From contig JAEHOE010000028.1 of assembly GCA_016858145.1 (NCBI GenBank), positions 806,001 through 870,000 of the forward strand: a stretch of 64,000 nucleotides of DNA, read 5' to 3'. Positions within the stretch are counted from its first letter, which is position 1. Each line of letters starts with the position of its first letter. Positions 18,050 to 60,274 of this stretch are shown here, in pieces. Below the pieces are notes generated by a model. The model saw nothing but the letters and a program-made list of their open reading frames with translations. It had not been told where the DNA came from and did not search any database. The stretch is from Edaphochlamys debaryana. Its lineage: Eukaryota > Chlorophyta > Chlorophyceae > Chlamydomonadales. Made by a program: the position numbers and the translations under genes.

Positions 18050-18840
18050 TCGGCGAATGCCGCTTCCCAGCCCATGCTCGCGGTTCGGCCGCACTGCCTT
18101 CTGCACTGCCAGCGCACCTTCAGAAGTTCCTGACGATCAGTCTCCTTGTTCGGGAGGGGGAACGGAGACATGGAGGTTTGTCGCGGTTTGCCGCAGGGGT
18201 GACAGCCAGCACACCATCGGAAACATATGCCGGTTAAACTTCTTGTTTAGGGCGGGGAAAGGTAGAGACATTGAGGTCTGCCTGAGGGGACTGAGCGGGG
18301 GTCAGCGGGGTGACCGTGGGGGGTAGACCGTGTGCAATCACACCTCAGCGGCCGGTCGGCACGGCGCTTCTCCGTGACAGTTGCACCGATGACCTTGAGG
18401 CTGGTTCCTGCTTTTGCACCAGGAATACGTGAGCCGCGGGCAGCGAACACTGCTGACAGCTGCACACACACAGTGTCGACAGCTCCGCTTGCGTATGCTT
18501 TCGCCTCGCTACGCCACATAGCATAGTGCCTGTAGGGGTCATTTTGTGTAGCGTGTGGGTGTAGTTGTGCAGGCCGCGGCAAGCTTCCACCTCCCGGGTC
18601 TGCCCGATCCCGCCCTCCATCGCGGAAGGACAGCGCTTCTCGTCTACTGCATCCCGTCATAACAACTGTTTGTGCCATCTGACCGTACTAGGCGCTGTGC
18701 TACGTGCAATACCACCGAGGATGCTGTTGCAGTTGCAGTTCCCTTCCATTTATGCTGTGGCAGCCTGCTTTTACCAGGCAGTCAACGTACCCATAGCGAG
18801 CGCTGCTGCGAAGTCTTGCCTTCTTAACCAGACATCCATC
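18050..18840 (+). repeat. Inverted copy of the exostosin gene's 5' flank
   Basis: Reads in inverse orientation to 26000-26680: shared blocks include AACATATGCC/GGCATATGTT with the GTTTAGGGCGGGGAAAGGTA stretch, CGCGGGCAGCGAACACTGCT, and CGCGGAAGGACAGCGCT. It directly precedes the truncated exostosin copy, as the real flank precedes the real gene. Confidence 0.75.
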
Positions 18841-19200
18841 ATGCTGTGGGCATCTCCAGGAGCGCGGCTACCAGCTAGCCTGGTGACGGTGGCACTGGCA
18901 TCGGTGACCGTGGCGCGCGATGAGGCGTGAGGGGGTCCGGGAGGAGGTCAGTGTGACTGAGAGCAGACTGAGGGCCATGGCGCGTCATGGCGTGCTCGCA
19001 CAAGCTCCTCCTCCGGAAATCCGGAAGCTCCCTTTCGTCCCCCTGCGGCTGCTGCAGCTGCACAGTCTGGCGCAGGAGCGTGCGGGGCCACTGGCGTGGA
19101 GGGTGGGCACGAGGGGGCCTCCTGCTTGCAACGGAAGTGTCCCCTGGTGGCGCCTCCACAGAGGTCCACAGCAAGCACTTCACCAGGAAGCGCCCCACCG
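18841..19200 (+). pseudogene. Truncated exostosin pseudogene (exons 1-2)
   Basis: Exon 1 copy 18841-18903 encodes MLWASPGARLPASLVTVALA, near identical to the start of the functional gene at 25984, but the donor GTGAGG has become GTGACC. Exon 2 copy starts at 19058 after GCTGCTGCAG (LHSLAQERAG) and has lost one base relative to the functional copy (about 19083), shifting out of the frame that would give EGGHEGASCLQRK. Homology fades near 19200, where the remaining 17 exons are missing. It lies in opposite orientation to its parent. Confidence 0.8.
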
Positions 19201-23100: not shown

Positions 23101-25984
23101 GGGCTAGAACGTTGGGCTCAGTTGAGAATCTAATTCAGAGCAGCAACAAAGGCCGAGCGATCAAAACGCTGGAACTGTCTCAAATGCAGGCTCGGCAAGT
23201 ACCAGGGCCGTTGTAATTGCAATGTGTAAGGTCTGGGTCGGCACTCCGTGGATAGAGAGCTTACCACGTCCCACCTGTACTGCAGCAGCCGCGCCTGGAA
23301 GAGCGGCTCCAGGTCGTACACGTAGACCAGCGGCCGCCTGCGAGTGGCCCGGGGCGGGGGCTCCAGGGCCGCGGGCGGCTCCCGCACCACGGACGCCAGC
23401 CAGGGGGTGGTGGGGATGCGGCTGGGCAGCAGCGGGAGGCCGGCCTTGCGCCGGGAGCAGTCGTGGCCGTAGTAGCCGTCGTCGCAGCTGGGAGGGGCGA
23501 GGAGGGTGAGGGCAAGTAAGAAGCACGGCTGAAGCAGGCCGTCTGGTGCCCACATACATCCTCCCCATGCATGAGACAGTGCCGCATAAAGCAGATACCT
23601 CTGAGCCCAGGGTGGCTTCCAGACGCAAGCAGCGCGGAGCCGGGCGCAGGTCCGCGCATTGCGAGGCCCTTTGATAATCAGCTGTACAACATGCAGCGTC
23701 TACGAAGGCCGCTGCATGCAGGCCAACCCTCACCCTCATCACCCGCACTCACAAGCAGAACCCCAAGTTGCAGCGGCCGTGCCCGCTGCAGGCCCCGGGG
23801 CAGAAGGGCTCCAAAGGCTCATCGCAGTTCTGTCCAGCCAGGTCATCAAGGCCACAGCTGTGGGAAAACGGAGGCACATTCGTGGTGACATGAAGGACAT
23901 GCATGACGCTTCACAATGACGGGGGGCCTGCTGGTCTGCAATGACAGGATGACACCACAGGGGCACAACCCCCTAACTGCCCTCCCCCTCGCATTGAGCC
24001 TCAACTCACTTGGGCATCCAGATGGGTTCCGTGACATTGCAGTACCCTGTCCGTGGACGGGTTGGGATGGAGAAGGGCCCCGGGCGATGCTTGGCAGCAT
24101 CAGCGAGGGACATCCCTTTGGCCATGCCCCCCAACGCTGCCCCCCGTGTTGCCGTACGTGCACGTCGTGCAGTACTACCTAACCGTTCCCACGCCCTAGG
24201 CAGCGCCTTGCCTTGCGGTCCGTACACAAGGTGGTATTCATGCTCGCCGAATGCCGGCTTCTTGTCCCATGTCTGTGGGGCGCAACGATCGGGGCAGGCT
24301 CAGCCGAAGCACCGTCAACTGCGTGCCACTTTGCACGGCCCCAGCCCCAGCCCCCGTCCAAGACCAAGACCAAGACCCCAACGAAGGTAGATACTTTCCG
24401 ATATCGGGAAACCCGGACCAGTGACCCACATGAGGTACCGCTCGACGGTATCCATGGCACCAATGCGCACAGCCAACGTCAGCACGAGCCTCACCGTGGT
24501 GGGTGCCATGTGGAAGGTGACCAGCGGCCGCCCCCGCCTGATGGGGGGCGTGCCGGGCGGGGAGCCCTCGGGCGCCGGGATGCGACCCATGGGACCGTCT
24601 GGGGGCGCCGATACGGTGAGTTATCAGGAGGTTTTGAGTGCATGGGCAAGTCCCCTGCATGCATCCAGCATCCCACGGCCCCCCGTGTGGCCGCCCCTCC
24701 CCACCGCAGTAGCAAATGGCGACGTCGTCGTCGCACACGCCTGGTGGGGAGGGCCGAGGGAGCATTTTCAGAGGGACAGAGTGCACGCGTGCGGCGAGTT
24801 ACGTCCCACGCGGCCCTAGCAGCACGCTGGAGAGTAGACAGTACGCCCACGTGTCCGGTACGGCCGGTACGACCCACCTCCGCATCTGCTGTACACCTTG
24901 GCCATGTTGGTCCAGTCCAGGTCCCGCTTGTCCGGGCCTATGAAGGAGGTGGGCTCCTTCCGCGGGTCCGCAATCGTCCTGCGGGAGGGCACATCGACGG
25001 GTCTCCGTCTTATAAGCAGGTCGGAAATCCCTTAGGCGTTGCCGCTTTGCAAGCCAGTGCCCACACGTCGTCTACCCCCGGACTTGTCTGCTCCTGTGGC
25101 CTTGCCCGGGAGTCACGTGTGTGCAAATCGACGGGTCTGCCTCACCCATTGCCACCGTCAGTGCCCACACGTCATCATGCCCCCGGACTCTTCTGATGCC
25201 CTGACCTTGCCTCAGAGAAGCGCGGGGCTAATGACTGAGAGCTTGTCATAGATGCTCCGTGCCCGTCTCACCGCTGTTTGTTGGTGCAGGGCCGCTTCTG
25301 GGGCGTGGCACAATCCGACCCGGTCCACCCCGCCGTGCACTCGCACAGGCCAGTGTCGTAGTTGCAGCGGCCAGCGTTGTTGCAGTCAGCCGGGGAGCAG
25401 TCCTTGCTACCACGCGGCGCAGTCCGCCAAGGTATCGGCTGCACACGGGGATTGCGGTTGGGGCTGGTTTGCACAGTCGCGCAGCTCAGCCGCAGCGCCA
25501 ACTCCTCACTACCGGTCCCCCCACCACCCAGCCGGGGAAGAAGTGCCCTGCATCCCTGCTCATGCGAGCCACACACCTCCTGCTTGAGTGCTTTCTGGCA
25601 CCAATCCCCTGCTGTGGCCGAGCAGCGCAGCTGAAGGGGGGCGTTCTCCGTCAGGGGGTACTTGCGCTCTAAGTGGGAGGCCCCCTCGTGCCCCCCCTCC
25701 GCGCCAGTTGCCCCTGCATGCTCCTGGGCGACACTGTGCAGCTGCAGCAGCCGCAGGGGAACGGAAGGGAAGGCTCAGGAGGAAGGCTCCGCGAGGGGGG
25801 CTTGCGCGAACACGCCATGGCCCTGAGTGACACGAGTGCTCGCAACCCAGACGGCCGAGGTGCCCCGGGCACCGTGAGCTCCTCCCGACCCCCCTCGCAC
25901 CCCATCGCGCGAAGCCCTCACCGATGTGAGGGCCACCGTCACCAGGATGGCAGGCAGCCGCGCTCCCCGAGATGCCCACAGCAT
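20165..25984 (-). CDS. Exostosin-like GT47 glycosyltransferase with EGF-like segments
   Basis: Nineteen exons (25984-25922, 25741-25577, 25402-25272, 24978-24878, 24740-24705, 24598-24495, 24272-24212, 24046-24010, 23857-23753, 23487-23275, 23048-22904, 22626-22536, 22409-22211, 22039-21928, 21700-21622, 21510-21437, 21233-21101, 20943-20721, 20363-20165) give 756 residues. GT47 enzymes sit in the Golgi as type II proteins and build cell-wall or matrix polysaccharides. Visible parts: N-terminal hydrophobic anchor (ARLPAILVTVALTS), an EGF-like CNYDTGLCECTAGWTG, a second CSGHGRCNLGFCF-CDDGYYGHDC, then the exostosin domain starting LVYVYDLEPLF with CVHRRHD, SEHRTFDPEEADFFFVP, FTHDEGACWAP, HTKGHACYNPEKD, FFKGDVG...YSRGVRQK, and the nucleotide-sugar region RATFCLVTGGDGWSARLEDA followed by LHGCIPVIIFD. 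Intron 7 uses a GC donor (AAG|GCAAGG), confirmed by phase. Acceptor sugar is unknown. Confidence 0.92.
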
Positions 25985-26700
25985 GATGGATGTCTGGTTA
26001 GGAAGGCGAGGCTTCGCAGCAGCGCCCGCTATGGGTAGCTGGACTGCACACTAATAGCGGTCACAGCATTAACGGAACGGGAGCGAAACTGCAACAGCAT
26101 CCTGGCCGAGGACTTGCGCAGGCAGCACAGCGAAGCCTAGTATGGTCAGATGACACAAACAGTGGTCTTGAAGGGATGCAGTAGACGAGGAGCGCTGTCC
26201 TTCCGCGATGAAGGGCGGGATCGGGGAGGCCCTGCTGGCCTGCACACTACACCCACACGCTACACAAAGAGATACGTACACAAGTATTATCCCATGTGAC
26301 ATAGCGTGGCGCAAGCTTGCACAAGCGGAGCTGTCGACGTTGTGCGTGCAGCTGTCAGCAGTGTTCGCTGCCCGCGGCTCACGCATTCCTGGAGCAAGAG
26401 CAAAGAATCAACCTCGGATCATCGGTTGGCAACTGTCGGGGTGGAGTGGCTGGCCGACCGGGCCGCTGAGGTGTGTTTGCACACGGTCTACCCCCACGGT
26501 CACCCCGCTGACCCCCGCTCCGGGACGGTCTCCCCTCAGGCAGACCTCAATGTCTCTACCTTTCCCCGCCCTAAACAAGAAGTTTGATCGGCATATGTTT
26601 CCGATGGTGTGCTGGCTGTGCAGAAGGCAGTGCGGCCGAACGGCGAGCAGGGCTGCCACGTGACGCGGCATTCGCTGCGAAATGCCCAGGGCAAGTCAAC
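25985..26700 (-). promoter_or_regulatory. 5' flank of the exostosin gene, duplicated inverted at 18050-18840
   Basis: Contains the promoter and 5' UTR of the minus-strand exostosin gene. Patches of high similarity to the inverted copy suggest duplication more than selection. No coding exon is supported. Confidence 0.55.
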
Positions 26701-26763
26701 TGCGAATGTTCTTCTTCGCGATCTTTGAAGAGTGCTGATCTTTGTCGGCGAACACACAAGCAA

Positions 26764-27541
26764 CTTCGGAACGGCCCAGTGCACCGACTCGACCACCTGG
26801 CAGAACGCCCTGGTGCTGGCCAAGGACAAGACGAGCTCGGGGTGCGTACGTGTGCCAGGGACTTCGCCCCGGCACCCAAGTCAACAGTGCCTCTTGTGTT
26901 ACAGCGTGCCGGGCTGTGGGCGAGCGCGGGCGTCGTTTTTGTAAATTAGCCCCGGGAGCCGAGGGGTACAGTAGATGCGCGCATTCCTCGCTGAAGACCC
27001 TCCCCGCCCGCTTGCTTTGGGCCCCCCAGGAAGTACTTTGCCGTGTTCACCGACAAGCTCTGCACCTACCGCTGGTACAGGTGGGCGGGGACAGGGGCGG
27101 GACACGGTGTGGGATCAGGTAGAATTTACGTAGGGGCTTCGCGGGCCAGCAGCAGTCGGTTTTCACACGCCTGCCGGCACGCGAGCTCATTACATGGGGG
27201 GCACTCCATCCAACTCATCCCTCACAATCCCGCCCCCACCCCAACCCGCCCTCAGCTACAACTATGCCACTGAGGAGTCGGTCAAGGTAGCCACTGGTCT
27301 CACCACCTGCAACACCGTAAGCAGCGGGTGGAGGGCCTTGCAACCGTATCGTTGACATTCGTGGGCGTGTCAACTACTTGCCCACACTCGAGTCATACTC
27401 TGCGGCCACGGCTGTACCAGACGCCCAGTCACCCCCTCAACACGCGCCTCCCTCGAATTCCATCCAATCCCCCAGAATGCCACGGCGCGGGGCATGTCTG
27501 CCAACTCTTGCGGGGTTGTGGCGTACGGCAAGAAGTGGTAG
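26764..27541 (+). pseudogene. 3' fragment of the papain-like gene (last four exons)
   Basis: Four exon copies, 26764-26841, 27030-27080, 27256-27316 and 27476-27541, correspond to exons 17 (partial), 18, 19 and 20 of the gene at 11268-17108, in the same order, with the same intron phases, working splice sites and the same stop (CGVVAYGKKW*). The first exon is cut inside (begins NFGTAQCTDSTTW). Exons 1-16 are absent and no start ATG precedes it. Because reading frame and splice sites are intact, the copy is young or still spliced as part of a transcript. Confidence 0.85.
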
Positions 27542-28945
27542 ACCCAAGCAGCGCTCTTATCACCAGCGCAGCTGCAAGCGCTGCGTGTGATGCAGAACGT
27601 GAGTCAACGTCAGGACTGAATAACGAGTTTGAGTGAAAGAGAGATGTCGCCTGATCCCGTACGGAGTACGGATTCATGGTGAGGCTACTCCCTGCAATGA
27701 CGGGAGTCCATTGATGCTGTTGAGCTGGCACCCTTGGTGCGGTAGGTCAGGCAGTTGCCCGGCGTGTTACGGACGTCTTCCAGCAGGAGAGTCCGGGCCC
27801 GGTCTTGGGTGCTGATGCGTGCTGAGGGTAGATTGCGTGAATGGCAGGTGACCGTATTATTTCTTCCTTGTGATACGTGTCTGCCCAGGCAGGTCATGTG
27901 GCTGCAGGCCTCGGATACGGCGCTGTGCCATGAGAGTGTATGTGGTGTTAGGCGCCCGTCAGCCGGTGTGTCCTGGCTGGTTGGAGTCATGAGCGATCTA
28001 CCGTATCGCCATGGCTAGATTCATAGATTGTAACAGACCAGATCCACCCAAGCGGCGACAGCCACCGGCCCTCCGGCCCTCTCCCCGACTCGACAGGTCT
28101 CGCCCGCTCGCCGATCCCCAACTTGTAGTTGGGCCCAAGTCTGGGCCCATCCATCCAAGACAGTTGGCGTCCATGTATAGTGTTATAGGCCCGTGCCCCT
28201 CCCCCCTCGCTCCCTTGTCTTGCCGCCGCTTGGCTTGCGCCAAGGCCCATCAAGTGTTCAACTTCAGGCATCCACGTGGCCAGCCTCAGCCAGTGGCCCC
28301 AACAGCGTGCATCCCCTTTGCCCCAACCCAACGTCCCAACCAGAAGGTTCCGGCAGGGGCGCAGGGCCGACACGATTGTACGGTTCGTGCTCTACTCATG
28401 GAAGCAAGCACGGGTAATGGGGCGACGTCCATCGTCCATGCCTTGGCTACCTTGGCCGCTGCCCACTGCACCCCCTCCAATGCCGGTCCTCTATCCGGTG
28501 ACAAAGTCTGCCCTCTGCACGCCCTGCTTAGGACAACCCTAGCCAGCGACGCATGTGCCCTACCCCGCACCCCCGCCGTGAGGCTCCCTGGCCTGAGCCC
28601 AGCCATCTGACGGCCCTTGCACGACGGGCAAGGTGCGGTCAGGTGCGGTAGAACCATCGCACCATCCACCTCTTGCTTGCTCGCCGAGACCCTTACTCTG
28701 CTGCACCCTCGGCCCTCAACGCCAACAAGGCCCGCTCCCGCCAAGCCCTGGTGCGCCTCACTACCTTGACGACGTCGCTGTGCGCCGGGCCGACCCGGCC
28801 CGGGCTCGCCACCCATCCGACTCTGCCCCCTCGGCCCTCCGCGCCAACAGGCCCTGGTGCCAAAGCTCTTTGCCGTCTTCGGTGTTGGCTCTGCTGAGCG
28901 CTGCCCCGGCCCGGGCTCGCCGCCGCCCCCCATCCGCCCTTCGCG
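27542..28945. other. Intergenic, imperfect GC-rich repeats
   Basis: No supported gene. 28700-28930 contains repeated CCCTCGGCCCTC-GCGCCAACA-GGCCC blocks (about 28708 and 28829), downstream of the exonuclease fusion gene's stop. A long open frame at 28.0-28.6 kb has no domain and no splice support. Confidence 0.4.
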
Positions 28946-31900
28946 CTACACGCCCTCCTCACGCCGCTCCCCGTCACCGCCACCGCCTCCGCCACCGCTC
29001 CCGTCCAGGCCCAGCAGCCGTGCCCCTCCCGGGCGGCTCAGGATGCGGCGCAGCAGCGCCCGGTAGGCGTCGGGGAGCGCCGCCACGTCCTGCGGATGGG
29101 GTGTGGTGGGCAGGAGGGAAGGGAGGACGGGGGGTTGCCGAGGTTGGCGATTGCCAAGGGCACGGCTTGGCGATGGTGGCGCAGCTCGGGGGGGTGGGCT
29201 GGGCCGCCACCGACGTCGTGAGGAGGGGGTGCAGCGGGCTAGGGGGCGAGGAGTGGTCGAGGGCACAAAACTCGACTCTGCAGCTGCCAGGAGTGCGCCC
29301 TCGTTGCCGCGCCAAGCACCCGAGCCCACGCCCTCCCCACGTGCATCCGATACCCACCCCCACGGCGTATCGGATCATCTCTGGGGTCAGGGGCCGCTTG
29401 GCCCAGACGTGCGGGTTGCTGCGGAGGAGGGCGGGAGTGGCAGCCGGAGGTCCAGGAGAATCAGGACCTGAGGCAACCCGGCTCGCGCTTGCTACGTAGC
29501 CCTCCGGGCACACGCACCAGAAGCGGCGCCACCGCTAAACCCCACGCCACCCACGCGACCCCACCCGCCCCGCCCTGCACCGCTAACGTGCGGGATTTGC
29601 TCCGTGCAACCGCCGAGACCACGTACGGCAGGTAACGGTAGATACCTGAACATGGCAATGCGCCGATACGATCCCACTCACGTGCGGAACAGTTGCTTAT
29701 ACTTGTCCTTGAGGTCGTGTCGAAGCCCGACGGACTCCAACACCACGCCCAGCCCCACCCGCTTGCGCGCCAGCTGCCGGGGGCTGACCTCCGCCACCCC
29801 CGCCTCTGCCGCCAGCGCGAGGGCGAACACGCTCTGTGGGGCCGAGGGAGGGAGGCGCGGTAAAGCCAGGGTAGCGGTAACGGACAGGCGGGTGGGCGAG
29901 GCGACCCTGCTGAGAACGACCGGGATACGGTACTGCGCGAGAAAGCTCGGTGTTGCTTGCCTGCGTGTTGACTAGGGGCGGCCCAAGCGTCAGGCCGTAG
30001 GCAGACCGCAGCAAGCTCTTGTCCTGGGGAGAAAAGGGGCGAGAGCAATAGACGTCAGACGGCGTCGATAACACGGCCTGCGATCTTTGCCTTCGAGAGG
30101 ACCCGGACCGAGCCTCCACCTGCCTCGCCTTTACGGTCCCAGTACGGCTGACGCCACAAGCGTAAGCGGTTGCCAAAATGTGACAGAGCACCAACGAATC
30201 CCTGGTCCCATTTCGGTACTGCCCCTGGCCACGTATCGCAGTACGGTGCGGCCCCTATGCGGCAGATCTCACCATCGCGGGGGCGTGCAGGATCTTGAGC
30301 AGCCCCGGGCTCTGCAGGAGATGCCCCACACGCATCAGCGCCGCGCTGCCGTCGGGGGAGAGCAGGTCCAGGAGGTAGGCGGTGCGGGGGTGGCTGCGGT
30401 CAAGGGGGCACGGGGAAGCAGGATTATGGTGGTGCATGGTACAGATACGGCGGTGTAGGGTACGGAACAGGTTCGGCAATGGGCCAGTGGTGCGTGCAGC
30501 GCATACGGATGTCCTTGCAGAGGCGCAAATCCAGGGGCGCAATCCACCAAGTCTCTCAGCAGAGCCCAGAGGGGGCGCCCAGGCGCGAGTTCGCGCGCCA
30601 GCCTGCCAGATACGGTGATCGGCGGGCGGCGACCACATGTTCCACGGATGGAGTCGCCAGGCGCACTCACTCTCCAACTGCCGGTGCCAGAAGCTGCAGG
30701 AGCGCCAGCCTGGGAGTCCCTTGCGGCTCGGCCCCCCCGGCGCCCGCCGCCCCTGCCGCCCGCGTCCTTCCGCCGGGGGCTCCCGTCCGCGTCATCTCGC
30801 AGTCAATCGCCACCGCCTCGCACGCCCCCAGATGCAGGATCAGCCGTTCAAGCTCGGGGCTGGGGGACCGCGTGACAATGACGACCTCCGGCTGCGCCCA
30901 GTCCTCCAGGGCCGGCGATGACGCAATCTCCGACCCAGCCGCATCCGGGGCTGCTGGTGCCGAGGCCCCAGCCCCGGCGGGTTCCTTCTCGGCCCCGATG
31001 GCACCGGCTGCCTCCACTACGCTTGCGCCGTCGGCGAGCCCTGCCGCGCCGGAGGCCGCGTCTCTGACCACCGCCGACCCCGCTGCCGGCACCGCCGCCT
31101 CGGCCTCGTCAGAGTCATCGCTGGCGGAAGCGGAGGGCGCTGCGGCGGCAAGCGCCCGGGCGTCTGCCGTGGGATCGGGGACCCAAGCGACGCGGAGCGA
31201 CCGCACGACTTCCACATTGCGTGCCGGCTGGCCCGGCTCCCCCGGCGGGGCCGAGGCCTCGCCGGGCCGCGGCTCCGCCGCCTCCCGTAGCGCCCTCAGC
31301 ACTGCGCCCCAGCCCTCCGCCTCCGCCTCCGCCTCCCCGTCCCCGCTGCCGCCGCCGCTGACGGGGGCGGCGGCAGCGGATTCGTCCGGGGTAGCGACGG
31401 CTACGGCAGGGGGCGCTGGCGAGGAGGCTGCGCTGCGCGCCACGGAACGGGGAGCGGACGGGTGCCCCAGGAGGATCCCCGCCAGGCGCTCGGGTGCGAG
31501 CGGCCTGAGGACGTCGGGCAGGGCAGCGACGAAAGGCTGAAGGCTGAGGGCTTAAGAGGACAGAAGGACGGTTCTACAGCCGTGGTATTGCTCCATTGCG
31601 CGCGCGAGAGAGCAGCCACCTTGCAGTGACACGGGCGCGGCCAGCTCTCATCCCCCGTCCCCGTCCCCGCTCCCGTTGCCCCTGCCCGCTCACCGCGTTG
31701 TGGCGCCCACCCAGGGGGGCGTGGGGTCGGGTCGGAGCCCGGCCTTGGCCGCTGCCGCCAGCTGTCCAACCAACAGCACGACATCGTCGCCTCCGCCGTC
31801 CGCAGCCGCGTCTGGCAGAGCTTTTGGCCAAGAGGGAGCTGGGCCGGTGGGCGAGAGTGCCGGGGCTACGGCGAACCGTGGGTCGGCCTCGATCAGCTGC

Positions 31901-34900
31901 CGTACGTGGCAGATCCGCTCCACGTGGCCCGGCGGGCCCTGCGGGTACTGCTCCTGGCTACGGTAGGCCTTCAGGAGCATGGCGTCTGGGGCCACGGGGG
32001 AAAGGGAGGTGAGGAGGAAGGCAGGATGGCGGATGGTCGGGGCCGGGGCGGTCAGGACAGGAGGGAGGCTGCACGCAGGGACAGCTCCTGGCGTTGCCAA
32101 GGCACGCGCGTTTGGTTGAGCACCCCGGCTTTGCAGACGAATATCTTGCTCACAGGCTCTGTTGATGGGCAGCGAGAGGGCCGGCTCAGGCGCGCCAGCG
32201 CCGGGGGCGTCGCCGCCGCTCGCTTGCGGCGCGGGCCTGGGCTGCCCGTGCGCCGCCAGGAGGTGGGCGAGTTGGTGCTTGAGCCAGGCGAAGTGACCCC
32301 CGTCTGGGGGATGAGGCAGCGGTTGGTGAAGAGGCGCATACTGTAAGGACACAGGCACTCGAAGGCACCAACGGGCAAGGCCCCCGGACACCCAGCGAGG
32401 CCGCACCAGGGGGATACACGGCGTCGGCGTCGCGTGGCGCCGTCACTCGCATCACCTCCGCAGCCGCCGCCAGCAGGGCCCGCGGGGACGGCCGAGGCGG
32501 CTCTGTAACCTGCGTCGAGACGAACGGGCGGGTGGATGGGCGTGTAGTAGTCCCGACACATGTCCAGTGCCGGAGCCCTGCCGACGAACAAACGCCTTTT
32601 CTGCGGTGCAGGCCCCGCTTTCCCCAAGTGCGAGCTCCAGGTCCGCACCCATCTCGAAGACCCACCCGCAGGCGTTGCGACACCTCTTGCTGCAGCGACC
32701 GGCGGCGGGAGCCTCCGTCGCCCGCCTCCGCCGGCCCGGTCGGCGGCAGGGCCCGCGCCGCCGCTGCGGCGGCCCCGCCTGATGACGATGATGGCGACGA
32801 GGGCGAGGGCGAGGGTGAGGGCGAGGAAGCACAAGCCTGAGGCACTAGCTCCTGCCCCAGCGCCTCCGCTGCCTCCGCTGCCGTACGGGCCACGCGGACC
32901 AGCGACTGCACCGCCTCGGCCTCAGCCTCCGCCTTCTGCCCAGCACCAGCTTCCGCCGCCGCCCCGGTCCGTCCGGGCTCCATCGCCTCTGGCGCCGCCG
33001 CTCCCATCGCTCCGAGCACACGCGCCGCCGCCGCGCTGAGCTGCCCAGCCGCGGCGCCCAGGGCCGTGATGGCGGCCCTCAGGTCCGCCAGGGCTGCCTC
33101 TGGTACCGAGAGGACGCCCCGTGCCCCGCTGGCGACGCCTGCTGCCGCTGCCCCGGCCTCGGTCCCCGCAATGGAAGCGTCTCCCAGCGCCCCGCCGGGC
33201 CCCGCGAGTTCGGCCGTCGCGGACGGCCTGCCGCGGCCGAGGGAGGGGTCCAGAAGGCCGAGGTTTAGGCGTACCAGGCCGCGTCGGGCGCGGCCGGGAG
33301 CGCTTGGTGGCACGGCGGAGAGGATAAAGAGGGGGTCGCGCGACAGCAGGCGGTGCAAGGACACGCCGCCCCTGCTCGGCCCCGGCTTGGGCGGGTGCAG
33401 GGCCTGAGCTTCCTCCACGAACCGCACGTGCACGCCTGCGGTGCAGAGTCGGATTGAGCGGGATTGATCGTGGGGCCGACAGCATGAATACGGCGGTGTG
33501 CATCAGGGGCTGCGCCTAGAAGCGGAGGAAACATGTCAGGCGCAGTGCAGAGAGTAGGCTGGCCCTAAGGCGTGCGAGTGACAACACCAAAACAGCAGGC
33601 GCTGCACAGCCTAGAGCACTGAGGGCCCTGGCAGCCATGGGAGCATGCGATCGGTCCCGCCACCCACCGATCATGCTCAGCATGTCCATGCTGCGCGTCA
33701 CGATCTGGCCCCGAGATCCCTGGATCCTGATTAGCAGCAGCGCCGCCTGCCCACGCAGCAGGTCCCCGAGGCTCCTGGAGGGCGGGAAGCGCTCCAGAAT
33801 GGCGCCCACCAGGTGCTCGTGCGCCACCGGCACGCCGGCCTGCACCCCCCTACTGCGGAGCCCCGCCTCCGGGGGGCCTGCGTGGGTCAGGACCGACGGC
33901 GCGTCTGACCCCGGCCGCCACACGCCCGCAGCCGTTGCCAGTGCCTCGGCCCGGGCGATCGCCTCCGCATGCTGCGCCTCCCAGGCCCTAGCCTGGGCCT
34001 CCGTTTCCTCTGCTGACGTGGACGTACTCGCCTGCACCCCCGCCGCAGGCTGCGGCCCCGCCCCGGCCTCGGGCAGGGCCAAGGAGGTGGCGGCGCCTGG
34101 CCCGGCGTCGGCCGCCGCCTCGGCAGAAGGCGGCGCCTCGGCAGACGCGTCAGGGGCCTCCACGGGGGGCCAGGGCTGCCGGCTGAGCATGGCTTGCACG
34201 GCCGCCTCAGCCTGCAGGTCGGAGGAAGCCGCGCCCTCGGGCCAGGGCCGCATCAGCTGCGCCGCAGTCGCGGTCTCCGGTGACGCCACGGCCGGCTGCA
34301 GCAGCTCCTCACCCAGCGCTGCGGTCAGGGAGGTGGCGGGTTGCTGGAAGGGCTCTCCGCCGCCGGCCTGCTCCGCCGGTGCCGTGCCAGCCTCCTCGAG
34401 CTCGGCCAACCGCTGGGCCGGGGCCGGGCCCGCGGCTGGGTCCGGTGCGGGGGCGGGAGCCGGCGGAGGGGCCTGGGCCCAGTTCAGCCTCAGCCGCACT
34501 TGGGTGGCGCTTCCACTCGCGCTCCGGGGCACGATCTGCGCGGGGCGCAAGAGGAACATGCCAAGGAACGGATTGTCCAAGGACATCAACGGGCTTTCCG
34601 GCCAAGCGTCCGATGGCAACCGCGAACAGGGTGTGTGGTTCGCAGGAGACCGGTCGCATCAAGCCTTACTAAGCTGTTACTCACCTCGAAGGCGGGGTCG
34701 CGATCCAGAAGCTTCTCCCAGTTGAAGGGAATGGCGTGTGAGCCTGGGTACAACGTCTGCTCAGCCCATACCCGCTGCAGGTACGATCCTGGCAACCGAG
34801 GAGAAGGATGCGGCACGCCACGTCAGCAGCCCGGCCCTAGCCCAAGGCCCAGGGGCAGCCATGGCCCCCACGCACCCGACCTGCGCCTCTCGCGCCCCCG

Positions 34901-37900
34901 CCGAAGCGCAACCAGAAGTTCAACCATAACCGTAACTGTAACCGTGACCGTAACCGTAACCGTAACCGAACACCGCCTCACCGATCGCGCCCGTCGTGTG
35001 ACACTTGGCGCTCGCTGCCGGGTCCAGTTCCTGTAGCCTCAGGAGGAGCTTGGCGGCCAGATAACGGACATAGTCCTCTGGGCTCCGCTGTGGGGGGTAC
35101 CGGGCCTTTGCGGCGGCCAAGAGGTGCTGAATCGAGGTCGACGGCTGGACAGACACGCCCCAGCTTCTGAGCAGCGCCTGGGACAGTGGCAGGGGGCGCT
35201 GGGGCACGGGCGCAACGTCGGGCGGCGACCGGAACTGCGCAGCCTGTGCCGGCTGCGCTGCCTTCGCCGGTGCAGCTGCCTTCACCGGTGGAGCTGCGCG
35301 CACGGTCGGGGCGGCCTCCGCCGGCTGCGCTGGCTGGTCCCAGTCTGGCCGGAGCCGCAGCGGGGCGGCCCCAGGTCCTGACCCGACCTCGAAGGCCGGG
35401 TCGGAGCGCAAGGCCTTATCGATCCAGCTGCTGGGCAGGGAGCCGCACATTGCGCGAAGGTAGATGCCTGCACATGCACAGGTGTGGAGCACCGCACAGT
35501 TAGGAAGGGTCAAGGCGTCCAACGCCTGGCTGCGCCTCAGGGGTCCTGGCACGAGGCATGCGGCGCTGCAACAACCCCTACTGACCAAAGTTAGAGACGA
35601 GGCCGAACTTCTTGAGCTTTTCCGGCCCGTTGGCCTCCAGTCGAAGCAAGACCTTGGCGGCAGCGTTCCGAATTCCGTCCTCGGGGCTCCGCCCTTGGGG
35701 GAATCGCCGGTCCGCAACCGCCAGCTGCGACGCCAGCTCGGGCGGAGGCGGCGACGGGACGCCCCAGGCCCGCAGCAGCCTCTCCGGGTCGGGCACCCAG
35801 TGCGGCGAGGGCGGCTGTGGCGGCTTGGGGGCCACAGCCTCGACCGTGTCTGCTGGGGCTTGCAGGGCCGGGGCGTCCGCCTCCGCCTTGCCCGTGCCCT
35901 CAGCCGCCGGGTCCACTGGAGGAGGAGGCGGCGGCAGCGGCGGCTGTTCCAGGTGCAGTGGGGGCCCCAGCTGCGCCGGTGAGGAGGTGGGCGACGAGGG
36001 GGAGGAGGAGATGGAGGAGGAGGCCGGGGAGGAAGGAGTCGCTGCTGGAGGGGCTGATGTCCCGGCCGAGAGGGAAGGAGACGCCGCAGCTTTGGGCGCC
36101 GGCGGGAGGACGGGCGGCGGTCGGGGCGCGAGCGGGGGCGGGGGAGGGATGGCTTTGCCGCCGTTGAGGAGGACTGTGAGGTGAAGCGTGGCAGGAGTGG
36201 CCGGCTGCAACGTAAAGCCTGGATCTGATTTCAGTACGATTTGCGTCCACGAAGGCCTCCGTAACATAGCTCGGTCGTCGGCCCAGCCCAGCGAAGCGTC
36301 GCGCCGGCTCCACGCATGCATCAAGTACGGCCCTGCGTGCGTGGTCGAAGGCGTGTGGCGTCAGGTATGTGTGGCAGACGGGCTCTTCAGGAGTGGCCCA
36401 CACCGAGCGCGGACTCACAGAGGATGCCCGTAGTTAGAGGGCCGGTCAGCGTGAGTGCCTTGGCCGCTGCGTTTCGTAGGTAGTACTCCGGACTGTGCCC
36501 AGGGGGGTACCGGGCATCGACCGCCGCCATGCGGGTTTCTAAACACGGCGGCGGCTGTGACGCGGTCTTCCAGAGGTGCCGTGCCAGCTCCCGCACGCCG
36601 GGTGCACTCACGCTTGCCGGCCGCACTCCCGCCGCCAAGTCCGCGGCGCCGGTGCGCGACCCCTCGGTGCCCTGCCCACTCGGCCCCCTCTCCTCCGCGC
36701 TCCGCCCTGCTGATGCCTCCCCGTCCCTTCCAGCGTCCGGCCGCAGCGCTTCCGCATCCAGCCGTCGCCCCGCGGAACCTTCCGCAGCGTCCCCCGCCCT
36801 GGGCCCCCGCCTGCGCCCGGGGTTGCGCGCGGGCTGTGCGGCCATCTCGGGTGGCCAATCGCTGCTGAGGGACGCCTGAGTTGCACGGCAGCCCCGGTTG
36901 ACAGTGAAGAAGGGGTCGGGTGCCAGCAGGTTCTCCCACCAGATGGGCCCCGCCGTTGGGTCCCCTGCCCCCAGGTGGTCTCGCCGGCGGCGCCAGGCAA
37001 GCTTGGCGTAGCCCTCTGCAGGCGGAAGGGTGCGATCAGCAAGAGACAGACGGGAGGCAGTGGCCATAAACATGAAGCAGAGCGGACGTCACAGCGCTAA
37101 AAGAGGGACCTCGAGCCGGCTAGGCAGCCTGGTCCGCCCAGGCTACCACCATACGGCTGCCTCATGCCGGGGGCGCCCTTTCCCATACCGGTACTCACGC
37201 AGCCGGCTCAATCGGTTCAGCTCGTTCCGTCGCTCCGGCTCTACAGATTCCATCCGCAACAGCGCCTTGGCGACTGCGTTCCGCACAAAGTCCTCGGGGC
37301 TACGCTTCGGGGGGTAGCGCGCCTCCACCGCCGCCAACAACGGCTCCAGCGCCGGCGGCGGCTGAGCCGGGACCCCCCAGGACCGCAGCAGCTGCTCGGC
37401 CTCGTCGGCCACGTCATCCCTGGATCCAGATCGCGCTGAATCATCGGCCCATGCAGATCCAGATGGACGAGACGCGGAGCTGCTCGCACCCGGCGGGCCC
37501 CCGCCGCCGGCTGCGGCAGCCGCCTCGGTGGATAGGGCCCGCCGCCACAACCCGGACTGCGCCCGGAGCAGGGAGACGTGCGAGCGCGGCGCGCGGCCGG
37601 GGCGGTCGAGGCCTACAACTGTGACGTAACGAGTTTGGGAGGGGAATGGGGCGTCAGGAGCGTCGGAGGCGAGGGCACCTGTGGAGCGGGCCAGGGGTTG
37701 TCTTGAGGGGCGCAGCGTGCGCTCCCGAACCCGGGGGCCCTCCGCGCAGCCTACGTCTGCCTCTCAACCCTATCCCCTGGTATTGGCAGCAGCCTATACC
37801 TTCCACTGAGGACACTGTCAGACTCCCCCACGCGGGCTCTCACCGTTGAGCAGGCGAGGCTCCTCCCCCCGGGGCCCCGTGCTCGGGGCCAGGGCCGGCA

Positions 37901-38033
37901 CCCCGGTGGCAGCGAGCGCCGCTACTCCGGCACCGCCGCGCCCGGCCGCAGTCGCGAGTAGGCGCTGCAGCAGAGAACCAGCAGGGACATGCTCGGCCCC
38001 ACGCGCGAGCAGCCCCAGGCCGACGCTGGCCAT
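28946..38033 (-). CDS. AB-repeat protein fused to an RNase D/EXD1-like 3'-5' exonuclease
   Basis: Seventeen exons (38033-37844, 37618-37199, 37015-36419, 36332-35586, 35467-34982, 34788-34685, 34535-33668, 33435-32666, 32509-32420, 32340-32154, 31985-31694, 31543-30671, 30393-30273, 30023-29961, 29833-29682, 29418-29358, 29089-28946) give about 2,054 residues. Exon 1 encodes an Arg/Ala/Leu-rich likely targeting peptide. Exons 2-8 carry alternating modules I do not recognise: A (YL-x-AW...W...LL-x-DPAF...LRL-x-W) and B (LLRSWGV...PPxRSPEDFVRN-AAKALLR), five of each, ending in an Ala-rich coiled coil. Exons 12-17 encode the exonuclease: VAIDCEMT (D, E), LHAPAMD (third acid, made across a splice), PLVNTQ, VWAKRPL and YAVGDV (Tyr and fourth Asp). 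Such enzymes trim RNA 3' ends. The exon 8 donor is uncertain (32666 or 32684), but no in-frame stop separates the parts. Intron 14 has a GC donor. Confidence 0.75.
34921..34970 (-). repeat. TTACGG hexamer tandem array in intron 5
   Basis: Seven to eight imperfect units of TTACGG (minus strand) follow the exon 5 donor of the fusion gene. It is one base away from the TTAGGG telomere unit, but short and intronic. Confidence 0.75.
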
Positions 38034-43985: not shown

Positions 43986-45616
43986 CTAGGTGGGCTGGCG
44001 GCGGAGTGGCGAAGTGATCTTGCAGTGGCGACGGCCCACACAGGCAGCGTGCTGCAGATCCTGCGCGAGCTGATCATTACCGGTAGATCGGGTGGCCCAG
44101 GGTTTCTCACAGGCCTGGGCGGCGCTCATTGGAGATCCCGATTGGGCGATAGCACCCTTAATAATTTGACACGGGTTTTGACGGACCGACGGCGTCGTTA
44201 AGCGGGGAGGGACCCCCGGCTCTGCAATAGTGCGTGGGATGGTTGCAAGACTTTTGGGTTCCCCGGGTGAGTTCATGCCTGATTGAGACGTCCGTTACGG
44301 TTCAGCTGTATGGCTGAGTGTAGGCTGGGCGCTTTTGCCCTGCTGACATTTGGGCAGCAACCCTTTAGCAGGCGTTCGGGACTAGCATATTCTTACCTCA
44401 GGACAGTCCTTGAAAGAACGGTCGTAGTACGGCAGGACGTAGGGCCCTACTCGACAGGAGGGCTATGATTAGCAGTCCATCCTTGGACGGCGTGTCAAGC
44501 TGACATTGTTTATGCTTCACGGATCCTTGCACGCAGGATGGGTAGACGCCTTAGTTGCCGGCATTCGTTTAGCAGTGATTGGTAATGATGGTACGCAGGT
44601 GCCCTCGGCCTAAAGGGTAAAGTAGGCTGCAGATAGCTTGTGCCTGCGTTGGTTGGGAAGTGGACCGAAGCGGTCCAGGCACAGGCCTATGCCACTTGGC
44701 ACGCACGCAGGGCATTAACCTAGTAATAATCGTGATCAGGTTTGGACGGACAACAACAGCCGAGTGGTGGATGGGTGGATAGACGGGGGGCAGGCGGGGG
44801 GCCAAGGGTATTCGTGCACCGGGACGGCTTGCATGACTGACTGTGCGGAACGCTGTGCATGAGGATTGTTTGTGTTGCCGTACGTGCCAGCGTGGCAGCT
44901 GGTGCTCAATCAGACTATTGTGATTGTGGTGGACTCACTTGAAGGCGTGAAGCATGTGGCCGTGCCCAGCCGCCTTGGCCCCCTCCGGCTTTCCGCACAA
45001 GCAGCGCCCCGTCTGGACCCGCGGCTTCCTGACACGAGAGAGGCAGGGTCCGAATCGTCCGATGCGCAGTGCTGCTGGTGAGTTGAGGGCAGTTAGTGGA
45101 GAGGCGCATGTCTGTTCGGGCACCTGTCAAAACAAGTAATGTGGTAGGGTTTCGGAGCAAGGACGCCAATCCGGTGTGCGGGGTATTGCTGAGCACGCCG
45201 CATGCACAAGGCCGCGCCGCTGACTCACCGCCCGCCTCCTCCGCCCCCTCAGTTCTTGCCAACCCCGTCTCGCATCCCAACACCCGCCAGACGGGGTCCT
45301 GAGCTGAAAGGGGAGCGGCCATAGCGAGTGAGTGGCTGGGCGAGGTTCCAGGTCCGCCGGTTGGGCTGACGTAATGGCGGCAACCGCTAAACTTACCCAT
45401 CTTCCCATCTTTATTCGTGCGCACCGCCAGCTCGCCTTGACGCCGATGAGCAGCTGTAACTTTTTTTGAGCAATTCCTGTGGCTTGCAGGCAGCTTCCGG
45501 GGTTTTGCAAAGGTGTATCCCACAATCGCAGCGTGTCTAGTTTTGCGTCGTTGCGTGCGTTCTTTGCTTACGCCTCGTTCTTGATTGATACTTACGCAAT
45601 ACAATCACACTGCGCT
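43986..45616. other. Intergenic between SGNH gene and lectin copy 1
   Basis: 1.6 kb without a supported exon; it contains the SGNH 3' UTR and the lectin promoter. Composition is less GC-rich than the genes. Confidence 0.45.
45512..45540 (+). promoter_or_regulatory. Lectin-family upstream block, copy 1
   Basis: GGTGTATC-CAATCGC-GCGTGTCTAG about 80 bp before the start codon is shared with copy 2 (55315-55345) and partly copy 3 (61741-61780), while the sequence between it and the ATG has diverged. Confidence 0.5.
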
Positions 45617-48600
45617 ATGTCCCCGCGTGTTTCACTGCGTTCTATGGCGCGTCGCGAGCGTACCGCATGTGCTGCGCGACTCGCGCTGACCGCTTCCATA
45701 CTGCTAATCGTCATGTTAATGTCGTGCTCTGTGTTGGGTGAGCTGCGGACCGACCGGCTTCGCTTTTCCTGCTCGGCGCGTCTCGCTCGGCGCATTCGCT
45801 TTCCGTCGCCAAACTTGCTTACGCGCACGGTGCTGTGGTATGACAAGACTTGCCTCCATCTTCAACCCTACGTGCAGCTGACACCGTTACCTGGTTGGGC
45901 CGGCGTCTGCGTGGCGGAGCCGTCGACATTGCCGCCGACCCTGCCGACCCGGCAGTTACGGGGTCCGAGGATGGTCCCGACGAGCGCCTTTGCACGTACA
46001 ACGACAGTTCTCTCCCTATCGAGCCTGCTGACCGTGAGTTAACCTTCGGTATCGATTGTGTTGCGATTGTCCCACGCGGGCTCTTGCGGGTCGTGCCTCC
46101 GCCTAGGGGACCGCCGGGACGGAACGCTGCCAGGTCGTGCCCCCCTCCTTGCGGGGCGGGTGTGCACGCTGCCCCCCCGTTCCATGCTTCCTCGCTCTCA
46201 GCAGTTCCGCTTGCCCTCTCTGCCAGTACCGGTACCGTGTAACCACGCCACGTGTGCCCCTGCCCCCTGCAGCGGCCCTGCTGAACCCGCTGGTCATTCA
46301 GGAGGGAGCGGAGTGTCCGCGCTGGATCTCGAATCCGCACGCCTGCACGCAGCCCGAGAGATGCGGACTGTACCAGAAGTGCAAGAGATGTGAGTGACCT
46401 GAAGCGGCTGGCTCTGTAGGTCGCAGGGGGGGCGTGATGGCACGGGCGGGTTTGTTACTCTCAGCCGTGCGCTACAGAACTCAGGCACGGGGATGGCACA
46501 AACCAGCGCACTTCGGAACTATGCTCGTGCCTTTCACATTGTCTTTCACCTTGTTTATATATGTTACGCTTCCATCTGCCCTCGCAGGCAGCGCCCTGGC
46601 CTATGCTGAGAACCTGGCCGGCTGGCTCCTGCTACAGCCCAACGGGTGAGGCCCTCATAACACTGGTCAGTCCGCACTCGAGGTCCCTGCTCAAGAGACC
46701 CTCTGCCCGTGCCCCAACCGCCCCGCCGCCCCGCCGCCCCGCCGCCCCTCTAACCCCAGGGACCTGCAGCTGTACACCGTGCGTCCCTCTTACATCAATG
46801 ACGAGGCCGAAACTGGATGGGGCCGCATCGTCCTGACATGGTCCACGAAGACCAACCAGACCAAGGCTTCCAAGTGGGTGTTCAACGGCTTTAGGCCACG
46901 GCTCACTTGGCAAGTCCTCATGCATAATGATCGTCCTCCTTCAAACCACTCGATAAACTGACCCAACCGCCTCCCACTCGGCCCCAGGTTCGGCTTCGTC
47001 CTCCTCAAGGACGGCACGTGGGAGCTGTGGGGCGGCAGCAAGGACGTGCCGTACGGCGTGCGCGCCACGTCAGCCGGATCTTTCTTCGGAATGGAGGGCG
47101 GGAGCCCCAACAGCCACACGTATCCCGAGAATGCCGGCGAGGCCAATGCACCCTTCAAGCTGCGCGTGTTTGATTTCGGCGTGCACAGGTGGTATTGGTC
47201 CTATGCAGCCATCGAGAACAAGCATGGCCTGCCCGCGTGGTCCACCCTGGATGGTGAGCCAGGGGTTCAGGGGTGGGTCCGCAAGACACGGGTGCAGAAC
47301 GGGTAACACAGGCCCTTCGCAGGCCCCGTGCAGGCATAAGTAGCCATGGTGTATGCCCTGGATCCCACTCGACATACCTGCGTACTTGCCATGCTGATCC
47401 TGAGTTCCTGACCCCGTGTACTGCGTGCCATCCGGCGACGTGCTCCCTCGCAGTCAACCCCTGCACCAACCAGGCGGTCTGCCCCGGTGACCCCCTGGCG
47501 CTCTGCCGCCCCACCGCCGACTGGACCGGACAGGACTGTACCGCGTGCAAGCCTCCATACTTCAAGGATGCCAACGGCAAATGCGTTGGTAAGCAAACGG
47601 TTGTTTCGCTCAAGCATGCAAGGGGGCCGAGTGGCGCATCCTCACCGCAACGGAACGACGTCCCCGTTTCCGGGGCAGGATGGCGGGGCGTGGGAGAACA
47701 CGCAAGACGGGCGATGGATACGCAATGCCGTACACTGGAGCACGTGACACTCAGGCCTGACGGTTCAGAATGGCAGGGCCTGACGTTCATTCCGCCCCTA
47801 CCAATTTCTTCCCTTTGCGCAGGCCACAACCTTGCCTTCGGAAGTAAGTGCCTGATACTATCGTAGGTCATCGGCTTCAAAGGGGCGTATCTGCGAATAG
47901 AGCTGGTGTGCGGCTCTGCCAGTGGGCTCTGCCAGTGTCTGGGCGAGTGGGCTGATTCAAGGCTGTGGCCTGTGAACAGACACCAGGCATCCAACTGCTG
48001 CCCCTGCCTCCGCCTCACGCCCTCCCCCCCATGCACCATCGGCCCGCACGCCGGCTGCCCGCAGGTCCCACGAGCATCCATGACATGTCGCCGCAGCAGT
48101 CGACTTCTCCCAGCGCCGCAGTGGACGGAAACACGGCCACGAGCTTTGTGGGCCTCGCCTGGTACGTGTACCCACAGCCGGCGGCCTACTGGCAGGTGGG
48201 CGGAGCGAACATGCTGAGGGGCATGCACTCAGTGAACCTGGGATACCTCTAGGGCTCGCTCTGCTCGTGCATGTGCTTGCAACGGGTGGAGTTTGCGTCG
48301 TAGGGCTGGTCGTGCAGCTATCGCAAGATTCGCAGCCGCGTCTCGAACGAGGCTGAGGCTGCGCACACGCCTACGCTAAGCCTTGATGGCGCTGCTGCAG
48401 GTGGATCTGGGCCCTACCAACATAGCCCATGTCGAGGTGATTGGCAGGTGAGAGTGCGTGCAATTTTGTTCCGAACAAACAGCTGGCCACCTTTCATTCG
48501 GCCAGCGTAAACTTCCATAAGCAGCACGCAATGTGGGATCCTGGCTGTGGGGAATGGGGGCTATGATGTGCTTCGTCCCCTTGACAGTGCCCTGTCCATC

Positions 48601-53200: not shown

Positions 53201-53750
53201 CGAGGGCTGGAGCTCGGGCGAGGCGGCGGAGGCTAGCGCCGGCCGCGGCGCCCCCCAACCCAACCTCACGGACGTTTGGGCTGGCGCCAAGGCCCAGGCG
53301 GGCCTGGAAGCGCGGGCCCAGGCCGGCCCCAGGCCGGGGGCCCAGGCGGGAGCCCAGCTTGGAGCCTCGGCCGTCGTGCAGGCGGGGGGCGAGGCGGAGA
53401 AGGAGGCGGGGGCGGACGCGCGGGCGGATCAGCAGGAGGCGCTGGAAGCGCTGCGGGCGGCTGTCACGGACCTAGAGGCGGCGTCCAAGCGGCTGGAGGC
53501 AGCTGCGGCGAGGGCGCTGGCGGAGCTGTCGAGGTTGGAGCAGCAGCTCGGGTCGGGTGGCGAGGGCCGGGCTGCGGCGGTGCCCAGAGGCACAGAGGCA
53601 GCCGCAGCGCTGGCGGAGGCAGTGGCAGAGGCGGAGGCGGTGCGGGCGCTGGCGGCAGGGGCCCTGGACACAGCTCGGGGGCCGCAGGTGGAGGGGCGGG
53701 GGCCACGTGGTGTCGAAGCCCGAAGCCCAACGGATCTCAGCTTGGCCTAG
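50291..53750 (+). CDS. AB-repeat protein without exonuclease, one-base frameshift
   Basis: Six exons (50291-50480, 50668-51372, 51500-51913, 52102-52492, 52728-52834, 52959-53750), about 865 codons. Exon 1 is almost identical to exon 1 of the fusion gene (MASVGLGLLARGAEHVPAGS). It contains three B modules (for example LLRSWGVPSPAPPELTG with SPEDFLRNATVRALLR) and three A modules (YLHFVWSEQRCHP...LRPDWAAE), then an Ala-rich coiled coil, and stops with SPTDLSLA; no exonuclease exons follow. The intron after DPAF and the resumption IVP match the fusion gene exactly. Exon 4 has one base too many at about 52165-52175 (AAATGG run): the frame of PSPFAD is lost and a stop at 52248-52250 would follow, while all downstream modules continue in the other frame. 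Recent inactivation or a sequencing error are both possible. Confidence 0.75.
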
Positions 53751-54160
53751 GCGGCCGGGGCTGCGACGGCGGCGCACATCTTCACCAGAAGCAGGTGGGG
53801 TGGTGATGGCTCGGCTTCTGATCGCTCTGTTGCTTTTTCTTAGTAGGACTGCATCGTTCTGCCCGTTATGCCCTTCAATCCTCCACCATTCTGACGCCAT
53901 CCGTGGCCATCACCCGCAGGGTCCGCCCAATGCGGCCAGCGCTTGACGGATGTGGCGGCTACTGCGCCGGAGGCGTGTCGCTCTCAGCGGCTGGGCGCTC
54001 CTCGGCACCTACCGCCGGCGGCCGCCGCGCAGGAGCAGGGTTCCGTCCTGGCGGCTGCGGCAGCAGCGGCGGCGGTGGCGTCTGCCGGGGCGCCTGGGAG
54101 GCCGAGGCGTGGGGCACAGTGCTGGTTGCTCAGCCGGCCGAGGCCGGCCAGCGGGCTCCA

Positions 54161-54370
54161 CCACCTCCGCCAGTGCCTGCGCCCCGGCTTTCCACCGCCG
54201 CAGCGCTCTCCGCCGCCGCCCTGGCTGGCCGCCGCCCTGGCTGGCGTGCATTCTGCGCCATCTACAGCTGCCCCGCCGCCTTTCGCCGCAGCGGGCTCGG
54301 CCGCCTCCGCCAACGCCGGTGCCCCGGCTTTCCGGCGCCGCAGCGCTGTCCGCCGCCGCCCCTCTCTGGC
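54161..54370 (+). repeat. Imperfect duplication, 140-bp spacing
   Basis: About 70 bp at 54161-54230 (GCCCCGGCTTTCC-CCGCAGCGCT-TCCGCCGCCGCC) recurs at 54301-54370. Confidence 0.7.
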
Positions 54371-55314
54371 GGCGGCGAGGAGGCCGCCGCCGGCTAGGAT
54401 GCGCTGTCCGTCGCTGCCTGGCCCGCCAAAGTGCCAACACTGCTCGATCTGTGACGATGCCAAGGGCATCGTCGCCGGCAGCGCAGACGTACGTACCCAA
54501 GGCGGCGGTAGTGGCGGTGGTTGCAGATGCGGCCTCCGGCGCTGCGTGGCGGCGGAGGCCAGCACTGGGACCGGGACTGGGGCCTCGGAGCGGCCCCTTG
54601 CGCTGGCATGCAGACGACATGGCCGATGGGTAAGGAGCCCTCGCCGGGGACTGGCGTGCGGCGCTGTTGGACCAGGCGCCTGCAGCCTTAGCTCGCGGCA
54701 GCAGCGTGCGTGCGGCTCGGGAGGATTGGCCGCCAGCAGCCTTGAGTCAGCGGGGCGTGGCGGCTGAGGCACGCGCTGTCGGGGGCAGCACGGGATGCCG
54801 TCGGGCGTGAGAAGGCCTGAGCGTGCCAACACCGCCGGCTGATGCATGCGCAGGTGGGCAGCGGCGTGGGGTACCGGTGAGCGGAGCATTAGGTATGGGG
54901 TCGTACAACAAGGTCGGGGTGTTGCTAGGTAACGGAAGCGACTAGGCGCGGCGGGACACGCGGGGGCCTGCGTGTGCAGCGGAGCAGAGACTACGGCGCT
55001 TTGCATGGGGCGCTCTGGGCATTGGCATTTGCATGCAGGGCACCGAAAACGGTAGCAACTCCAGGTGGCGTTGTAAGGGCTGTTGCGGCCGAGGGTGAAA
55101 GACATCAGGGCCACTTGGCTGAGTGCACCCTGCGCTCCGCTGTGGGGCGCTTGTACCGTAGGAACGGCAACCGCTTGCTCACCGAAAGCCCTCGACACCG
55201 CTGGTGTGCACCAGAAGCTCGCGTGACCGCAAGTTGCTGATCTCTGCATACACTGTTAGCAGGGCCTTACTTCCTGGGCGCTCGGAAGCAGCTTTAGGGT
55301 CCCGGGGTGTACCG

Positions 55315-60247: not shown

Positions 60248-60274
60248 GGGTACTCGCATCCTTCAGCCCATCCA

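Follow-up and report, generated by a model that had tools for sequence, protein, structure and literature searches.

In the green alga Edaphochlamys debaryana, one nuclear gene (gene A) is proposed, with moderate confidence, to encode a leader, five repeat units each made of a B and an A module, followed by an Ala-rich coiled coil, then a degenerate sixth unit and finally an Egalitarian/EXD1-type DEDDy exonuclease, with the units capturing RNA and the exonuclease either trimming or degrading 3′ ends or serving in an RNA-binding pocket. The gene lies within a window of 64 000 nt, the whole stretch of DNA analysed (contig JAEHOE010000028.1, positions 806001–870000); the genome searched comprised 142 Mb in 502 contigs.

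Gene organization

Placement by splice signals and reading frame yielded 17 exons between 38033 and 28946 on the reverse strand (Table 1). The coding sequence of 6201 nt encodes 2066 aa and leaves no remainder on division by three; splice phases are consistent throughout, with no internal stop and one terminal stop, and the open gene model of the preliminary description is thus upheld. GT-AG borders are found in 15 of the 16 introns, intron 14 being GC-AG. GC3 of the exons is 0.81 overall, with the introns at 0.59–0.71 (14 of the 16 at 0.61–0.67). A GGTTAC-type hexamer array is located in intron 5, just past the 5′ splice site (34925–34970, reverse strand).

The NCBI deposit HYH03_007099 (2033 aa) shares the architecture and is identical to gene A over the exonuclease part that was searched; it differs from the reconstruction only in later acceptors at exons 2 and 12 (20 and 13 residues fewer, respectively). 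The E. debaryana annotation is described as a BRAKER annotation with stranded RNA-seq on a genome of 142.14 Mb in 527 contigs (PMC8226300).

Exon 1 had been taken to encode an organelle-targeting signal. Its first 45 residues contain three Arg, no Lys and one acidic residue, and its best amphipathic segment is unremarkable, being equalled or exceeded by 38 % of 2000 shuffles; the assignment is not supported. Exons 2 to 5 are in phase 1 at both ends, and exons of this kind can thus be duplicated with the frame intact. The module exons were probably multiplied through duplication of such phase-1 exons.

Table 1. Exons of gene A and related copies within the window
Feature	Position	Strand	Content
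Exon 1	37844–38033	−	ATG at 38033; 63 aa leader; duplicated at 50291–50480 (+), relic near 60270–60470 (+)
Exon 2	37199–37678	−	B module copy 1; NCBI start 20 codons later
Exon 3	36419–37015	−	A copy 1, linker, B copy 2
Exon 4	35586–36332	−	A copy 2 (leave-one-out not significant), Pro/Ser-rich linker, B copy 3
Exon 5	34982–35467	−	A copy 3, linker, B copy 4
Exon 6	34685–34788	−	Start of A copy 4
Exon 7	33668–34535	−	Rest of A copy 4, long Ala/Pro linker, B copy 5
Exon 8	32666–33435	−	A copy 5 (leave-one-out not significant) and Ala-rich stretch, likely coiled coil
Exon 9	32407–32509	−	Degenerate B-like copy, first half, ending YPP; by eye, missed by B profile
Exon 10	32154–32303	−	Degenerate B-like copy, second half; by eye only
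Exon 11	31694–31985	−	Degenerate A-like copy; 6.2 bits, not significant
Exon 12	30671–31543	−	Acidic/Ala-rich linker; exonuclease motif I (D1843, E1845, near 30804–30796) at 3′ end; NCBI start 13 codons later
Exon 13	30273–30393	−	Exonuclease core
Exon 14	29961–30023	−	Motif II Asp D1928 is first codon; GC-AG intron follows
Exon 15	29682–29833	−	Exonuclease part with KDKYKQLFR
Exon 16	29358–29418	−	WAKRPLTPEM and motif III Tyr Y2016
Exon 17	28946–29089	−	Motif III Asp D2020 is first codon; Gly-rich tail; stop
Gene B, inverted paralogue	50291–53750	+	Three B and three A copies (one A split by frame shift), Ala-rich stretch, stop; no exonuclease
Exon 12 relic behind gene B	53998–54413	+	59 % over 425 columns; 58.3 bits, shuffle maximum 46.8; 0 of 200 shuffles as good
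Exon 12 relic, copy C	60542–60768	+	63 % over 245 columns; 61.1 bits, shuffle maximum 34.0; 0 of 200 shuffles as good

Repeat modules

The reality of the modules, which occupy exons 2–8 of gene A, is firmly established. As previously counted, there are eight B copies, five in gene A and three in its paralogue gene B. A profile trained on these copies scores them at 73–100 bits, and the next best of 717 ORFs in the window (≥60 aa) reaches 5.5 bits; a whole-unit profile adds the A copies in the same ORF set. In leave-one-out searches, whose rows came from an alignment that had been built on all members, six of the eight B copies returned E = 7.9e-29 to 2.1e-4; copies U3 and UB2, which the matching rule wrongly assigned to each other, are not counted. 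Five of the eight A copies returned E ≤ 8e-6, and three were weak (0.021, 0.43 and 1.1).

The gap from B to the following A is 19, 10, 19, 19 and 20 residues in gene A and 20, 19 and 20 in gene B (19–20 in seven of eight), whereas the five measured gaps from A to B vary widely (89, 129, 55 and 205 in gene A and 22 in gene B, for the gap that does not cross the frame shift). This steady versus variable spacing suggests that the folding unit is likely B then A, split by a phase-1 intron, with the A–B pair within an exon only loosely tethered. The earlier picture of seven exons of alternating A and B modules thus stands as to the modules, while the boundary of the repeating unit moves from the exon to the intron-spanning pair. 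The five B–A units of gene A are 107–124 residues each, and the B copies start 160–325 residues apart.

Structure prediction of an A and B pair had been proposed earlier as a check. For gene B, AlphaFold2 was run on the shortest exon of the A-linker-B type, together with 10 exon pieces from the window (mean pLDDT 75, pTM 0.58). In the gene B exon, B forms four helices, mostly at 84–91; in A, a helix at residues 25–30 (block mean 65) is followed by strands at 35–38 and 44–47 (77–80), but the first A helix stays below 50. In P0002, the NCBI model containing gene B, block means for B copy 1 are 86–94 over residues 581–630, B copy 2 is at 61–84, B copy 3 is low and two long Ala-rich helices are good. 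The models suggest a B–A unit whose helical body finishes with a helix and β-hairpin, a winged-helix-like shape. Fold searches with the predicted module structures gave no usable match.

The preliminary description recognized no known family in the modules, and no clear family match has emerged. Pfam scans at E ≤ 1 and E ≤ 10 returned sub-cut-off matches only, for example HEAT (0.08), Chol_subst-bind (0.014) and DUF1179 (0.17). The best PDB profile matches, uracil-DNA glycosylase (0.028) and RAD23 (0.072), were taken as chance. Genome-wide single-protein searches located the modules only in the window, in genes A and B, with E values elsewhere of 0.7 and 1.8 for B and 5 for A; these searches scored the best candidates only, and the module count is a lower bound.

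Two protein searches recovered no relatives outside E. debaryana among their best 7978 and 7980 candidates, lists that were probably filled by Ala-rich words. A cleaner query with the exonuclease stretch (7577 candidates; relatives of about 650–2070 aa) returned only HYH03_007099 and missed even Egalitarian itself, so that relatives elsewhere may exist. Outside subscription journals, no paper names either locus tag (HYH03_007099 or HYH03_007101). Likewise, nothing on the gene A protein was found in the open literature on Egalitarian/EXD1 or on OPR with RNase D, or among the matches listed for LOTUS with exonuclease or Chlamydomonas and for Egalitarian in plants or algae.

Exonuclease domain

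The C-terminal domain is, from its sequence, firmly a PF01612 DEDDy 3′–5′ exonuclease (E 3.1e-9; 37.3 bits for the domain and 27.8 in P0001, with a curated cut-off of 23.6). The complete DEDDy site claimed earlier is confirmed as D1843, E1845, D1928, Y2016 and D2020, with Y-x3-D kept, and the domain may have exonuclease activity. Following the last catalytic Asp are only 46 residues, about half of them Gly-rich tail.

The earlier RNase D/EXD1-like label was right as to a DEDDy exonuclease, but Egalitarian is far ahead of RNase D. Two Egalitarian chains were the best PDB matches (9.6e-9 and 8.2e-8), followed by NrnC (0.025), a putative 3′–5′ exonuclease (0.05), trypanosome RNase D (0.1), Escherichia coli RNase D (0.27) and Mut-7 (0.3). 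By sequence comparison, Egalitarian is the closest solved relative. The NCBIfam RNase D model gave 34 bits against a cut-off of 299. In the genome, the second half of the domain found five matches, all in gene A, while PF01612 found four, all of them outside gene A, which this exon-by-exon search missed.

Paralogous copies and locus history

Exon 1 differs between genes A and B at 7 of 189 sites (0, 4 and 3 at the first, second and third codon positions), and the fourth exon of gene B (52102–52492) is 391 nt long and shifts the frame. A further copy, C (near 60230–60770), consists of exon 1 without its ATG and then an exon 12 relic. In both copies the exon 12 match ends before exonuclease motif I; nonetheless, these matches suggest that exon 12, which bears motif I at its end, travelled with exon 1. 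No convincing exonuclease relics were found behind either copy: the best scores were 38.3 bits for gene B (2 of 200 shuffles as good) and 22.6 bits for copy C (146 of 200). A control stretch, one of two, reached 36.8 bits (1 of 200 shuffles), and values in that range are not trusted. A match to exons 9–11 in gene B, which beat 200 shuffles narrowly (42.5 versus 39.7 bits) and overlaps the coiled-coil match, was not used.

Three tandem blocks on the forward strand (45616–47616, 55435–57698 and 61859–63954) are interleaved with the copies that carry exon 1; the pieces that match between blocks are 78–98 % alike. The F5/8 type C part of P0002 appears to be encoded by the first block, of which the other two seem to be copies. 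P0002 (HYH03_007101, about 46 kb to 53750, forward strand) joins an F5/8C protein to gene B, probably through an annotation merge; it enters inside gene B exon 1, and an extra intron skips the frame shift. Elsewhere in the window there is an inverted repeat of 970 bases at about 80 % identity (18202–19146 and 25652–26619), and several short inverted matches with their order kept connect 11267–11974 and 26763–27542 (best 84 bases at 98.8 %).

Alternative explanations

A single transcript of gene A is likely, its joint at 32.7–32.4 kb resting on gene models; the converse, that two adjacent genes have been read as one, with a module gene that stops behind the coiled coil and an exonuclease gene starting in exons 9–12, is unlikely although by no means far-fetched. 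Gene B ends (53750) straight after its Ala-rich stretch, the exon 8 frame is open as far as 32186, so that several ends are possible, and P0002 appears to fuse gene B with an F5/8C gene, such that pipeline fusions may occur in the window. However, the RNA-seq-based NCBI model joins exons 8 to 11 at identical junctions and then exon 12 at a later acceptor, and degenerate B-like and A-like stretches go on, by eye, in exons 9–11. The poly(A) signal TGTAA is absent between exon 8 and the exonuclease exons and from the whole of 39059–27194 on the gene A strand (13 on that strand of the entire window), which is weak evidence because only about two would be expected there by chance. The exon 12 relics following the exon 1-bearing copies favour one gene, although duplication of a two-gene segment would also fit. 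It is rather improbable that gene A belongs to a young, lineage-restricted, fast-evolving locus of little conserved function whose copies B and C are in decay, with gene A perhaps to follow. Consistent with such decay, gene B is frameshifted, copy C has lost its ATG, the exon 1 differences by codon position give no sign of constraint and, among the matches listed, the protein searches returned only E. debaryana proteins; against it, the 6.2 kb frame of gene A runs stop-free through its 17 exons and retains the full set of five catalytic residues.

The octotricopeptide (OPR) is an RNA-binding repeat abundant in these algae, and B could in principle be a stray OPR hairpin and the protein an odd OPR nuclease, which is considered quite improbable. 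Chlamydomonas OPR proteins are nucleus-encoded helical repeat proteins in related algae; by eye, both they and B show PPP-helix-SP-helix hairpins, and hhalign against 220 OPR repeats of the same genome gave a weak hint (E 0.024 for the units, with 3 of 200 column shuffles as good, and 0.006 for the B part). OPR is described as a tandem repeat of 38–40 residues (PMC8635915). By contrast, B copies are separated by A and linkers over the far greater distances given above, and profile searches provide no link between B and OPR, with its LWALA motif: no B copy is among the 16 best hits of the OPR profile in 717 window ORFs, and OPR loci score no more than 6.5 bits with the B profile. Outside the window, the B query met nothing beyond E 0.7 and 1.8, whereas the OPR query found at least 113 places at E ≤ 0.001, with the best 150 of 354 candidates scored. 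A cluster of octotricopeptide-like reading frames is located on contig C12 at about 0.47–1.06 Mb.

Comparison with Egalitarian and other proteins

Drosophila Egalitarian (Egl) is described as having three LOTUS-like winged-helix domains connected through flexible linkers, behind which come the exonuclease homology domain and, last, a tetrahelical XAD; its putative catalytic residues are about 15 Å from the RNA and dispensable (PMC13186709). Tandem domains, flexible linkers and then a DEDD-type 3′–5′ exonuclease homology domain are common to Egalitarian and the algal protein, and the exonuclease halves share KD..KQ..R....WAKRPLT.EM..YA.GDV. The algal protein differs in lacking an XAD, in having five or six units rather than three, in the intervening Ala-rich coiled coil and in its length (2066 versus 1004 aa). 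The Egalitarian domains are LOTUS-like winged helices, and no such likeness was found by sequence for the algal units. The likeness of the whole protein to Egalitarian is offered as an analogy.

LOTUS membership was sought with several profiles and gained no significant support from sequence. OST-HTH (PF12872) matched none of the eight B–A units at E ≤ 10 with HMMER filters on, and its genome search, which reads exon by exon, was empty, with no control genome passing the cut-off either. With hhalign, the units aligned to bacterial LOTUS domains from 30 loci at E 0.11 in a sensible-looking register, but 25 of 300 column shuffles were as good, and non-LOTUS windows from the same proteins (23 of 30 ORFs) scored 13.0 versus 13.2; 40 thrA windows scored at most 11.4 and the reversed control 11.5. 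A PDB search with the bacterial LOTUS profile failed to retrieve Egalitarian. The secondary structure predicted for the module by AlphaFold2 would fit a wing, while PDB sequence and fold searches were without match. It seems doubtful, but conceivable, that the B–A units are highly diverged Egl/LOTUS-type winged helices, and the protein an algal Egalitarian-like RNA-recognition machine with an intact nuclease.

Other nucleases are also combined with additional domains. EXD1, an exonuclease-like protein of the piRNA pathway that is presumably of the same exonuclease subfamily as the gene A domain, has an Lsm-type N-terminus and an exonuclease that is degenerate in mouse. The plant MNU/DNE1 and animal MARF1 proteins have a nuclease of the NYN type and, not being DEDDy, differ from the algal protein. 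Their nuclease is accompanied by LOTUS domains (PMC9181182). The trypanosome mitochondrial RNase D, TbRND, is described as RNase D-like with tandem RNA-binding CCHC zinc fingers N-terminal to the nuclease (PMC9181182). Both TbRND and the algal protein have tandem modules before the nuclease, although those of TbRND are zinc fingers and the sequence match is weak (E 0.1).

Possible function and implications

A protein of 2033–2066 residues would be made from the single transcript, and each B–A unit may fold, as the models suggest, into a single helical domain that closes with a helix and β-hairpin. The units may bind RNA, such that a beads-on-a-string array on flexible low-complexity linkers would catch structured RNA; the Ala-rich coiled coil may dimerize the protein, and the exonuclease would trim or degrade the 3′ end of the caught RNA. 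Alternatively, by analogy with Egalitarian, the exonuclease may mainly form part of the RNA-binding pocket.

RNA binding by the units would mean that an alga with relatives much used in organelle RNA research combines a modular reader with an eraser. Should the units be Egl/LOTUS-like, the finding would bear on the origin of Egalitarian, a nuclease fold turned RNA-transport adaptor, and the architecture would either predate animals or have been assembled twice. If neither is the case, the modules would represent a domain family that is new, having arisen and multiplied within a single lineage through the duplication of exons.
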